64,000 bases of DNA, from contig JAITSV010000056.1 in assembly GCA_031287575.1 (NCBI GenBank), positions 62,001 to 126,000 of the forward strand, in the 5' to 3' direction. A program made the translations under genes and the position numbers. Positions 3,001 to 50,880 of this stretch are shown here, in pieces. The DNA comes from Desulfovibrio sp. (GTDB lineage Bacteria > Desulfobacterota > Desulfovibrionia > Desulfovibrionales > Desulfovibrionaceae). Within the stretch, counting starts at the first letter, position 1, and the number at the start of each line of letters is the position of its first letter. Under the pieces are notes generated by a model that saw only the letters and a list, made by a program, of their open reading frames with translations, was not told the origin of the DNA and made no database searches.

Positions 3001-6000
3001 CGTCCACGTTCACCGAGCTTGCGCCGAACTGGATCTTGGAGACGATGGCGCCGTCCGCGCCCTGCACGTCGTCACCGGCTTCGTGCCAGAAGAAGTTGCC
3101 GGTCACCACGTTGCCGGAGTCGGACTGGCCGGTGTGCGGATTCCAGTCCGAGTTGCCGTCTTCGGTCACGCTGCCGAAGTTGTCGTACGCCGTGGGAACG
3201 TCGTCCTTGATGTGCACGTCGATGGTGCCGGTGTCGGCATCACCGTTGCGGTCGATGGCCTTCACGCCGAACGAGAGCTGGTAGTCGTTCTCGCCGTTGC
3301 CGTTGGCATGCGGCGCGTTGTCGTCCAGGGTGAACTTGTACGAAACCTTGTAGTTGCCGTCACCCAGGTTCTGTACGCCGGTGATCACCAGGTTGCCGTA
3401 CGGCGAATCGAAGGTATGGTCGGCCTTCAGCACGCCGTTCTCGTACACCGTTTCGGTCACGCCGTTCAGGGTAATCTTCAGGGTGTCCAGCCCGTCGTTG
3501 GCGTTGACGATGAACGTGTCGGAATCGGTCAGCGAATCCTTGGGGAAGTCGCTGCCGTAAGGCAGGTCGTCCTCGTTCACGTGCAGGCTGTTGATGCAGC
3601 CGATTTCCACCCGGTCGTTAGCGCCGTTGATGGTGATGGTCAGCTTGGCGGTGTCGGTGTCGCCGTCGCCGTCCTTCAGGGTGTAGGTGAAGACTTCCTT
3701 CAGGGTTTCACCCGGAACGAGGTGCTGCACCGCGTCGTTGCCGTTGTTCAGTTCATAGGTGTAGGTGCCGTCGGCCTTGATGAACAGCTTGCCGTACAGC
3801 CCGTTGATGAATTCGCCGCTGGTGTCCACGCTTTCGCTGTGGCCGCCGAACTGGATGTTGGACACCTTGGCGCCGTCAGCGCCCTGCACGTCGTCGCCAG
3901 CTTCCGGCAGCCAGAAGATGTTGCCGGTGATGACGTTGCCCTCGGCCTCATCGTCGGTGTGCGGATTCCAGTCGTGACCGCCGTCTTCGGTGACCGTGGC
4001 GTAGTTGTCGTGCGCCGTGGGCACGTCGTCGGTGATGTGCACGTTGATGGACGCGGTGTCCCAGTCGCCGTTGCGGTCGCTTACCGCAAGGCCCAGCGAA
4101 AGCAGGTAGTCGTTTTCGCCGTTGCCGTTGGCGTGGTGCGCGTTGTCGTCCAGGGTGAACTTGTATTCGATGCGGTACTTGCCGTCGCCCAGGTAGTCCA
4201 CGTCGTACACCACCAGGTTGCCGTACGGGGTGTCGATGGTGTGGTCGGCCTGGATGTCACCGTTGATGATGACGCTTTCGCCGTTGATCTTCACCACGTT
4301 CAGGCCGTCGTTGGCGGTGACGATGAACTGCCCGTAATCGGTCAGCGATTCCTTGTGGATGTCGCTGCCCCACGGCAGATCGTCTTCGTTCACTTGCAGG
4401 CTGTTGATGCAGCCGATTTCCACCCGGTCGTTGGCGCCGTTGATGGTGATGGTCAGCTTGGCGGTGTCGGTGTCGCCGTCGCCATCCTTCAGGGTGTAGG
4501 TGAAGACTTCCTTCAGGGTCTCGCCCGGAATGAGGTGCTGCACCGCGTCGTTGCCGTTGTTCAGCGTGTAGCTGTAGCTGCCGTCGGCCTTGATGAACAG
4601 GGTGCCGTACAGGCCGTTGATGGTTTCGCCGTGGGAGTCCACGCCCTCGGAGTGGAAGCCGAACTTGATGTTGGACACCTTGGCGCCGTCCGCGCCCTGC
4701 TGGTCGTCACCCAGTTCCGGCCAGAAGAAGATGTTGCCGGTGATGACGTTGCCCGAGGTGTCGTCGTCGGTGTACGGGTTGTGGTCGTGCCCGCCGTCTT
4801 CGGTCACCCACGCGACGTTGTCGTGCGCGATGGGCACGTCGTCCACGATGGTGATGGTCAGGGAAGCGTAGGCGGAATCACCGGAGGTATCGGTAACGCT
4901 GATGGGAATCACGTCGCCGGTTTCGGTGCCGTCGGGGAAGGTGTGGTTCACGTTGTCGTACAGGGTGTACTTGTACGAAACAGCGTACTTGCCGGTGGCA
5001 TCGTCATAGCTGACGCCGGTGACGTCCAGCACGGCGTGGGCCAGCAGCGGGTTGTTCACCACAAGACCGTTGGCGCCGATGAACAGCGGCCCGGCCGCGT
5101 CAAGGTCATCGAGCGAGGCAAAGGTCTTGCCGCCCACGGTAACGGACGCGAAGTCCTCGTGCTGCATGTCGACGACGAAGGTGCCAGCGGCCACCACGGC
5201 TTCATGGCCGGCTTCGGTGCCCACGGCCCACGGCGTGAACAGCCCGGACTCGTGCACCACGTGCGCTTCGGTGGGCATGTCGATGTCGGGGGTGCGCTCG
5301 GCTTCGATGATCGTCACGTTGAAGGACGAACTGGCCGTGTCGCCGTCACTGTCGGTGATGGTGTAGTTGAAGTGCAGGGTGCCTTCAGCGCTGCTCGGCA
5401 GGTCCAGCAGCGCCTTCTGGGTAAAGGTCCAGTAGCCGGTGTCCGGGTCCACGCTGAGCACGAAGGCCACGTTGGACTGGCCCAACGCGGAAGTTGCGTC
5501 GGTATAGGCCGCGAGATCTTCCGGGGCATCACCGATGAAGCCCACCACCAGCCCTTCGGCGGTGGTGACCACGTTCACCACGTGACCATCGGTGGTCCAG
5601 ATTCCCGAAGGCGATTCCACGGCGTCCACCGCCGCTTGCAGTTCGCCGCCTTCCGATCCGCCCTCGGGGACGACCACCGACACCCCGGCAAAGCTCAGGT
5701 CGAACACCCCACGGTCGTCCGCGCCGTAGGTGAAGTCCAGGTCGCCGTGGGCAACGCCCACTTCCGACACCAGGTGGAAGCCGACGTTGGTGATGTAGAA
5801 GTCGCTGCTGTCGCCGACGGCGGGTGCGTCATGCCCGTGGCTGCCGTAAAGGCTGGGCATATGCTGATAGTCGAGGCCGATGATCACCACCCGGTCGAAC
5901 AGGTTCAGGTTGGTGAAGTTGTAGCTGTCACCGCTGCCGGCCATCAGCATCCGCGAATCGACAAGCTCGTCGCCCAGGAAGAACAGCACCTTGCCGACTT

Positions 6001-7330: not shown

Positions 7331-9381
<2,051 letters not shown>

Positions 9382-48149: not shown

Positions 48150-49019
48150 TCAGCTGCCCAGCCGCTGCACCAGTCCCATGATGTCGTACACCAGCCGCGC
48201 CGCCGCGAAGTCCGCCGCGTGGAAGCCAGGCATGGGGGCCAGTTCCACCACGTCGAAGCCCAGCACCCGACGCCCGGCCATGGCCAGTTCCAGGCAGCGC
48301 CGGGCGTCGTACCAGCCGAGGCCGCCGGGCACCGGGGTGCCGGTGGCGGGCATGATGGACGGGTCCAGCCCGTCCACGTCGAAGGTCACGTAGATGCGTT
48401 CCGGAAAGTCCGGCGGCAGCAACGGGTCGGGGATGCCGTGGCGGGCCAGCGCGGCGGCGTCCAGATGGCCGATGCCCAGCGCGGCGCGGCAGTCCACCTC
48501 TTCGCGGCACAGGGCGCGCACCCCGATCTGGAACAGCGACAAGCCAAGGTCGGCCACGGCGCGGCGCATCACCGCCGCGTGGCTGTAGGGCGTGCCGCCG
48601 TAGTTGTCGCGCAGGTCGGCGTGGGCGTCGAACTGGATGACACCGAAGGTGCCGTGCTGGCGGTGCAGCGCCCGCAACGCCCCCAGGGTGACGGTATGCT
48701 CGCCGCCCAGCAGCACGGGCAGCCCCCCGTGGGACAGGACCGTGGCCGTGGCCGCCTCGATGCGCGCCAGCACCGCCTCCGCCCCGCCGGAACAGTCCAC
48801 GGCGGGCGCGGTGTGGATGCCCAGTTCTGCGGGCACCGATTCGCCGTCCCACAGTTCCAGTTGGTCCGATGCCGCAAGAATGGCGTCCGGCCCCGCCGCC
48901 GTACCCCCGCCGTAGGAAACGCTTTCTTCGTAGGGGACGGGAATGACATGAAAACGCGCCTCTTCCGGCGCGACAGCGTCCAGTTCAGAGGCCAGAAAAC
49001 GCCCTTCGGCGTGCCGCAT
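48150..49019 (-). CDS. speB: Agmatinase
   Basis: A 289-residue ureohydrolase that splits agmatine to putrescine and urea. Mn ligands are visible: H108 in GGEHT, D131/H133/D135 in QFDAHADLRDN and the aspartates of TFDVDGLDPSIMP; GTPVPGGLGWYDAR matches the family. It is the last gene of the polyamine cluster. ATG at 49019 with GGAG upstream. Confidence 0.9.
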   Translation of the reverse strand: MRHAEGRFLASELDAVAPEEARFHVIPVPYEESVSYGGGTAAGPDAILAASDQLELWDGESVPAELGIHTAPAVDCSGGAEAVLARIEAATATVLSHGGLPVLLGGEHTVTLGALRALHRQHGTFGVIQFDAHADLRDNYGGTPYSHAAVMRRAVADLGLSLFQIGVRALCREEVDCRAALGIGHLDAAALARHGIPDPLLPPDFPERIYVTFDVDGLDPSIMPATGTPVPGGLGWYDARRCLELAMAGRRVLGFDVVELAPMPGFHAADFAAARLVYDIMGLVQRLGS

Positions 49020-49195
49020 GGCAAGCTCCGGTAACGCCTTCCCGCGCGGGGAGGCGGCTGTTTCCCCTCCGCAACGGCATGACACCCCTGACACGCCGCG
49101 CGGCCCTTCCAACAACGCCGCCCTTGCACAAGGGCGGCAGCCGAAACCATCAAACGAAACACGCCGCCCGCGCGGTGCGTGCGGGCATGGCGGCG

Positions 49196-49507
49196 CTACA
49201 GCGCCGACTTTTCCGCCGCGATGATGTCCAGATACGGCCACAGCCACAGCAGGCGGCGCAACCGCACCACCACGCTGCCGCCGGTACGTTCGGGCCGCAG
49301 GTCCGGGTCGGACCAGATGGTCACGCCGTCGCGTTCCTCGCGCCGGAACCGGGCGGCCTCGCGCCCCTTGGGTTTGCCCACGCGCACGGCGGGGAGGCTC
49401 AGCAGCGAGCCGCCGCCTCAGCAGCCGCGCAGGGGCTGGTAGTACAGCGTCACGTGCCCGCCGCGCCCGGCCACGTGGCGCAAGGCATCGGGCTTGATGT
49501 CGATCAT
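49196..49507 (-). CDS. Small selenoprotein, CC/Se-motif (HesB-like) family, in-frame UGA as Sec
   Basis: A 103-residue product if UGA at 49418-49420 (codon 30) is read as selenocysteine: MIDIKPDALRHVAGRGG, then HVTLYYQPLRGC-Sec-GGGS, LLSLPAVRVGKPKGREAARF, DGVTIWSDPDLRPERTGGS, and finally VVRLRRLLWLWPYLDIIAAE. The frame, codon bias and protein character continue unbroken past UGA to a TAG at 49196-49198. Directly after UGA (49388-49417) the mRNA can fold GGCGG, GGCTC, loop GCTGCT, GAGCC, CCGCC, a possible bacterial SECIS with a G-led loop. The Cys-Sec/Cys-Cys followed by GGGS matches a family I know as CC/Se-motif proteins. Function unknown; it sits between nspC and speB. Confidence 0.8.
49388..49417 (-). 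promoter_or_regulatory. Candidate bacterial SECIS hairpin
   Basis: Lies immediately 3' of the UGA. Stem 1 GGCGG/CCGCC, stem 2 GGCTC/GAGCC, hexaloop GCTGCT starting with G, the base SelB commonly needs. The loop is 12-17 nt after UGA, slightly closer than the textbook 16-37 nt, so it is a candidate only. Confidence 0.5.
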
Positions 49508-49612
49508 GACGGCCTCCGGTGGAATGCGCCTGTCACCGGACGGTAAGCATGTCGACCATGCCGCGCAAGCGCCGCGCACCGGCGTCCGCCCGCCCCCTGC
49601 CCGGGCAACGGC

Positions 49613-49664
49613 CAGAACAGGTGGCCAGAACAGGTGGTCAGGACAGGCGATCAGGACAGACGGT
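49613..49664. repeat. Four 13-bp tandem repeats at the nspC stop codon
   Basis: CAGAACAGGTGGC (49613), CAGAACAGGTGGT (49626), CAGGACAGGCGAT (49639) and CAGGACAGACGGT (49652). The last two cover the nspC stop codon (49651-49653) and its final codons. Probably a slippage tract; it may tune coupling to the selenoprotein gene. Confidence 0.7.
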
Positions 49665-50880
49665 ACTTGAACGCCTCGTACCCGAACGAGCGCACCACCT
49701 CGCGCCGCGCGCCCCGCCCTTCGGCGCCACCTTCCGTTTCGGCTGGCCGGTAGCGGGCGATGGCGGGCAGTTGCAGCCCGTTGAAGGTGGTGGTCTTGAC
49801 CATGCTGTAGATGGCCATGTCCAGGAAGGCCAGCCGGTCGCCGGGTTGCAGGGGCGCATCGAACGAGTATTCGCCGATGACGTCGCCCGCCAGACACGAC
49901 TTGCCCGCGAAGCGGCAGGTCCACGCCTTCTCCCCCGGCAGGCCGGAGCCGATGCAGCCGGGGCGGTAGGGCATTTCCAGCACGTCGGGCATGTGCGCGG
50001 CGGCGGAGGCATCCAGGATGGCAACGGGCATGTCGGCCTGCACCACGTCCAGCACGGTGCACAACAGCACCCCGGCGTTCAGGGCCACGGCCTCGCCCGG
50101 CTCGATGTACACCTGCACCCCGTACTTCTGCTGCATGCGGTCGATGCACCGGCACAGCAGGTCCAGGTCGTAGCCGGGACGGGTGACGTGGTGCCCGCCG
50201 CCGAAATTCAGCCATTTCATGCGCGAAAGGTGCGCGCCGAATTTCGCCTCCACCGCGTCCAGGGTGCGGTCCAGCGCGTCGGCGTCCTGCTCGCACAGGG
50301 TATGGAAATGCAGGCCGGAGATGCCGTCCAGCGCGTCCTGCCCGCGCGCCGCCGCCTCCGCCAGGGCGGCCTTGAAGTGGTGGGGCCGCACGCCCAGGCG
50401 AGAACCGGGCGAACACGGGTTGTAGATGGCCACGGCCCCTTCGGAATGCTCCGGATTGATGCGGATGCCGCACTCGATGGGCCGCCCCGCCGCCGCCACC
50501 GCCGGGCGGAAACGGTCCCACTGCGCGAACGAGTTGAACACCAGATGGTCGGCCAGGGTCACCAGTTCGGCCATGTCCGCGTCGCTGTACCCGGCGGCAA
50601 AGGCGTGCACCTCGCCCCCGAATTCCTCGCGGCCCAGGCGCGCCTCGTGCGGGGAACTGGCGCAGGTGCCGTGCAGCACCCCGCCATGCGCGCGCGACAG
50701 CAGCGGAAACAGGCTCCACATGGCAAAGCCCTTCAGCGCCAGCAGCACCCTGGCCCCGGTGCGGCGCTGCACCGTGTCCAGGATGGCGGCGTTGGCCTCG
50801 ATGCGGGCCTCATCCACCACGAAGCACGGGGACGGGAAGCGGGTGGGGTCGAGCTTGGCGAGATAGGCTTGGTCCATCAT
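49651..50880 (-). CDS. nspC: Carboxynorspermidine / carboxyspermidine decarboxylase
   Basis: A 409-residue PLP enzyme of the alanine-racemase-fold decarboxylases that removes the carboxyl group of carboxy(nor)spermidine, the last step of the aspartate-semialdehyde spermidine route. The likely PLP lysine is K50 in VLLALKGFAMW. Other family features are GIRINPEHSEGA, YNPCSPGSRLGV, GISGLHFHTLCEQDAD, LNFGGGHHVTRPGYD, IEPGEAVALNAG and EYSFDAPLQPGDRLAFLDMA. ATG at 50880 (an ATG-ATG pair) after GGGAG. Confidence 0.92.
   Translation of the reverse strand: MMDQAYLAKLDPTRFPSPCFVVDEARIEANAAILDTVQRRTGARVLLALKGFAMWSLFPLLSRAHGGVLHGTCASSPHEARLGREEFGGEVHAFAAGYSDADMAELVTLADHLVFNSFAQWDRFRPAVAAAGRPIECGIRINPEHSEGAVAIYNPCSPGSRLGVRPHHFKAALAEAAARGQDALDGISGLHFHTLCEQDADALDRTLDAVEAKFGAHLSRMKWLNFGGGHHVTRPGYDLDLLCRCIDRMQQKYGVQVYIEPGEAVALNAGVLLCTVLDVVQADMPVAILDASAAAHMPDVLEMPYRPGCIGSGLPGEKAWTCRFAGKSCLAGDVIGEYSFDAPLQPGDRLAFLDMAIYSMVKTTTFNGLQLPAIARYRPAETEGGAEGRGARREVVRSFGYEAFKYRLS

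Follow-up and report, generated by a model that had tools for sequence, protein, structure and literature searches.

The window analyzed here, a stretch of 64,000 nucleotides from a Desulfovibrio contig, contains between nspC and speB a gene of the CC/Se motif family that lies on the minus strand and is interrupted by a single in-frame UGA (Table 1). The original prediction described an open frame broken only by a UGA at codon 30, directly after a cysteine and before GGGS; these features and the length of the frame are as stated, and its position between the two polyamine genes agrees with the TIGR01047 and TIGR01230 matches of the neighbors. The strand was absent from that description, and a plus-strand reading of positions 49196-49507 is not the gene. 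The joined product, MIDIKPDALRHVAGRGGHVTLYYQPLRGC-U-GGGSLLSLPAVRVGKPKGREAARFRREERDGVTIWSDPDLRPERTGGSVVVRLRRLLWLWPYLDIIAAEKSAL, has 103 residues with the predicted selenocysteine at position 30, in the context RGC-U-GGGS, and Cys29 is its sole cysteine.

Table 1. Features of the CC/Se motif family locus and its immediate neighbors (window coordinates)
Feature	Position	Strand	Basis or remark
nspC, carboxynorspermidine decarboxylase, upstream neighbor	49651..50880	-	TIGR01047, 458.6 bits
Shine-Dalgarno-like GGAGG, a few bases 5' of the ATG	49513..49517	-	similar in Nitratidesulfovibrio copies
CC/Se motif family selenoprotein gene (predicted), form B, 103 codons and TAG stop	49196..49507	-	NF041239 above cut-off, one TGA inside
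Frame, 103 codons	49507-49199	-	TAG stop at 49198-49196
Cys29 codon, immediately 5' of the UGA	49421-49423	-	
In-frame UGA, codon 30, predicted selenocysteine	49418..49420	-	UGA in all orthologs, Cys or Sec at homologue dyads
Hairpin cited earlier, GGCUC-GCUGCU-GAGCC, G-led 6-nt loop	49396..49411	-	present, not above shuffles
Better SECIS candidate, interrupted hairpin, contains G	49377..49395	-	register of the family hairpin
speB, agmatinase, downstream neighbor	48150..49025	-	TIGR01230, 207.4 bits

The joined product matches the NCBIfam model NF041239, "CC/Se motif family (seleno)protein", at 46.5 bits (E 3e-12; curated cut-off 40 bits) over residues 1-82, and since this match runs across the UGA, the frame is not a product of chance. 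No matching model was found in a Pfam search with the product, and a sequence search of the PDB gave no match. In the family alignment, C29-U30 of the window protein shares its columns with the dyads of 24 other sequences; the motif lies in the loop that follows the second strand. One weak match to the family profile (L074 of genome G329) lacks a dyad of Cys or Sec and was left out as evidence. A family member is found at the same place in six sampled congeners, all with the UGA, which is also kept across genera, including homologues in other taxonomic families. The search for homologues with Cys at the dyad was successful: it is filled by Sec or Cys, and in the distant members L073 and L094 Cys replaces Sec. 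Reading of the UGA as Trp is rejected, since the dyads of the homologues do not contain Trp.

In the standard bacterial code UGA signals termination, and the locus might accordingly be viewed as a pseudogene or as the gene of a 29-residue peptide. However, coding conservation does not end at the UGA but runs on as far as a common stop codon, most changes in the ortholog codons 3' of the UGA being silent, the UGA itself is kept across genera and families, and the genome has the machinery for selenocysteine insertion, which together make termination at codon 30 highly improbable. All of the components looked for are present: SelA (609.6 bits), SelB (359.8 bits), SelD (352.5 bits, its own gene with one in-frame TGA), and tRNA-Sec (83.6 bits). 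The NF041239 match across the UGA, the conservation of this codon, the homologues with Cys, and the Sec machinery argue for the selenoprotein reading, and on these sequence grounds residue 30 is almost certainly selenocysteine. The window also contains a cobalamin riboswitch at positions 7945-8125 on the plus strand (102.6 bits).

The gene had been presented as an unreported-looking selenoprotein. The assignment to the selenoproteins of the CC/Se family stands, but the novelty of the kind does not, since NF041239 is a curated model and the family is listed in a recent inventory (PMC13188914) as a predicted selenoprotein family, first predicted in Moorella thermoacetica, with the motif CxxU and one Sec; "unreported" applies at most to this one gene. 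By the cut-off the window protein belongs to this same family, which it also resembles in its small size and in the location of the Cys/Sec dyad, but its Cys and Sec are directly adjacent (CU) and not separated as in the listed motif. Another HesB-like gene with an in-frame TGA, in the context APGG-U-SGPR, is found on contig 7 of the same genome, with a second HesB-like match without TGA close to it. Since this gene exists, the HesB-like selenoprotein that PMC1794560 reports from Desulfovibrio vulgaris is probably of the contig-7 type and not a CC/Se protein.

Two paralogues occur at the nspC locus, form B with RGC-U-GGGS, as in the window, and form A with RGCG-U-ASR; they stand in tandem in G124 and in the N. 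liaohensis record. Tandem paralogues, C-G-U in one and C-U in the other, were observed within one genome at L055 (positions 5001-5312 and 5399-5707). When both paralogues are pooled, 2 of 28 codons are variable among the 14 just 3' of the UGA, compared to 61 of 175 elsewhere (Fisher P 0.002). Even silent changes are thus suppressed at this point, and the near-invariance is consistent with an RNA signal embedded in the coding sequence.

In the bSECIS model, as quoted in PMC13188914, the loop lies 16-37 nt after the UGA and has a G among its first two bases. The hairpin singled out originally does exist and its loop is led by G, but it is weak as a SECIS element, as the loop begins 11 nt after the UGA, outside this range, and the folding energy is unexceptional (z -0.53; 55 of 200 shuffles fold equally well). 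The interrupted hairpin at 49395-49377 appears to be a better supported candidate, since its spacing fits the model (about 29-30 nt from the UGA to the loop) and its register is that of the family hairpin; taken alone, it is weak (P about 0.09). The register of the family hairpin is fixed and spans the codons T-P-A-V-R-x-G, or their equivalents in the group f16. In the latter, 5-8 of the 8 hairpin pairs are found in 17 of 18 sequences, with a few compensating changes, and among the relatives with a UGA-UGA dyad described below, taken together with L068, all seven register pairs are found in 8 of 9 sequences, with T-A exchanged for G-C in two. Both group totals exceed all 1000 synonymous-codon shuffles in the family register, a comparison that is made without correction for relatedness, the sequences being related and the count not independent. 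This test supersedes a mononucleotide-shuffle test, which is uninformative at this GC content.

The structure predicted from 25 family members (mean pLDDT 82.7, pTM 0.73), in which the loop following the dyad is ill-defined, has SufA and IscA (E 1.1e-3) as best Foldseek matches, followed by other A-type proteins and the related DsrR. A VIA-align comparison of the model with SufA extends over 82 residues (Z 7.8, 2.9 A). The Foldseek E values and Z are modest, yet every leading match is from one superfamily. In addition, an independent comparison of profiles, against HesB-like proteins from the same genus, gave 85%, with the dyad aligned to their Cys/Sec. The modeling thus suggests that the product probably has the IscA/SufA/HesB-like fold of A-type carriers, and the HesB-like character proposed for it at the outset is supported by both the predicted fold and the profile match. 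The HesB-like selenoproteins of TIGR01911, with the UxGP motif, resemble the window protein in its predicted IscA-like fold and in the Sec/Cys of the matching loop, but the window protein gave no listed match to this model at E up to 10 and has no C-terminal CxC. We estimate at about 0.8 the probability that the locus encodes a genuine selenoprotein with an IscA-like fold.

From this fold, and from the alignment of the dyad to the Cys that comes first among the conserved ones in HesB-like proteins, one might expect the protein to carry or help assemble Fe-S clusters in the manner of IscA/SufA, with the cluster bound by Cys29 and Sec30. The A-type carriers, however, have three separate Cys ligands, including the C-terminal CxC, whereas the window protein has just the vicinal Cys29 and Sec30. 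The absence of the CxC makes a classical carrier role unlikely, and no Fe-S assembly gene was recognized adjoining the CC/Se gene in the examined loci.

The dyad of the family is variable in order and composition. Apart from CU, as in the window, we observed CxU (form A), UxC (G017 and G118), UC (G326), UU (bacterial family f64), and, in distant members, the Cys-only CC; on the phylogenetic tree, the CU, CxU, UC, and UU forms fall into one supported group (98/95). The f64 proteins, which lie outside the window, have two adjacent in-frame UGA codons (GGC UGA UGA) at the dyad in seven genomes of three genera by their assigned labels (loci L075, L103, L104, L105, L106, L107, and L108; at about 5091-5099 of the oriented locus, or 1109 in L103), while an eighth relative, L109, has Cys-UGA in this position. 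Two of these genomes, G605 and G606, are near-identical, which leaves about six separate cases. All seven have SelA, and the shared family hairpin follows 21 nt after the second UGA. It is likely that both dyad positions are open to Sec and that in f64, which is of the same phylum, both are Sec, forming a natural vicinal Sec-Sec site. Here Sec would be inserted twice in succession, directed by one downstream hairpin. The UU motif is absent from Table 1 of the 2026 inventory of prokaryotic selenoprotein families (PMC13188914), and no relevant report of adjacent Sec residues was found in the literature searched, which included few subscription papers.

For the window protein, we propose that SelB and tRNA-Sec would decode UGA codon 30 as selenocysteine, with insertion directed by a hairpin just downstream within the coding sequence. 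The first conserved cysteine of the A-type fold would be replaced by the vicinal Cys29-Sec30 pair, the C-terminal CxC being absent, and this pair might either form a reversible selenenylsulfide in thiol/selenol redox chemistry or serve as a soft metal or chalcogen ligand. Replacement of either dyad member by Sec is what would be expected of selenolthiol/selenenylsulfide cycling or of joint holding of a soft ligand, and a role of this type is tentatively preferred. Mammalian thioredoxin reductase has the C-terminal sequence GCUG. The window protein shares with it the Gly-Cys-Sec-Gly tetrapeptide and the vicinal selenolthiol, but the fold and the position in the protein are unrelated, and the comparison is one of possible mode of action and not of kinship.

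The gene neighborhood was considered as another source of functional evidence. In the window, speA and the gene of carboxynorspermidine synthase lie upstream of the CC/Se gene and are co-directional with it, as are nspC and speB, and the CC/Se gene adjoins nspC in all six other congeners holding it, which would suit a gene of polyamine metabolism, for example one whose product protects or reduces an enzyme of the carboxynorspermidine route. None of these four genes, however, was found within about 5 kb at any of the 17 homologous loci from other genera, two congeners have no speB at the locus, and a gene order kept in one genus may be mere inheritance. The placement among the spermidine genes was encountered in this genus alone; a general link to polyamines is not borne out, and a polyamine function is improbable. 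In other genera, aldehyde:ferredoxin oxidoreductase, MFS transporters, or a 6-phosphofructo-2-kinase-like protein are among the neighbors, and so is a membrane protein of the BI-1 (Bax1-I) family with pyruvate:ferredoxin oxidoreductase genes after it. The BI-1 gene is often 3' of the CC/Se gene on the same strand in the f16 group (L062, L064, L072, and L112-L116), and at several loci pyruvate:ferredoxin oxidoreductase genes also follow it. The UxC form occurs near aldehyde:ferredoxin oxidoreductase genes at L053 and L059, the oxidoreductase family being confirmed by search only for L059. No partner gene common to the examined loci is visible, nor is there among them a conserved neighbor pointing to a particular function.

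The above analysis shows that what appears to ordinary gene finders as a broken gene clearly belongs to a known, uncharacterized selenoprotein family. The description given here of the fold and the dyad variants of the CC/Se family comes from our own computations, and the family thereby gains a predicted IscA-like fold and a possible chemical logic, that of a Cys/Sec pair in either order or with both residues Sec. In the UGA-UGA relatives, consecutive insertion of two selenocysteines would be directly testable.
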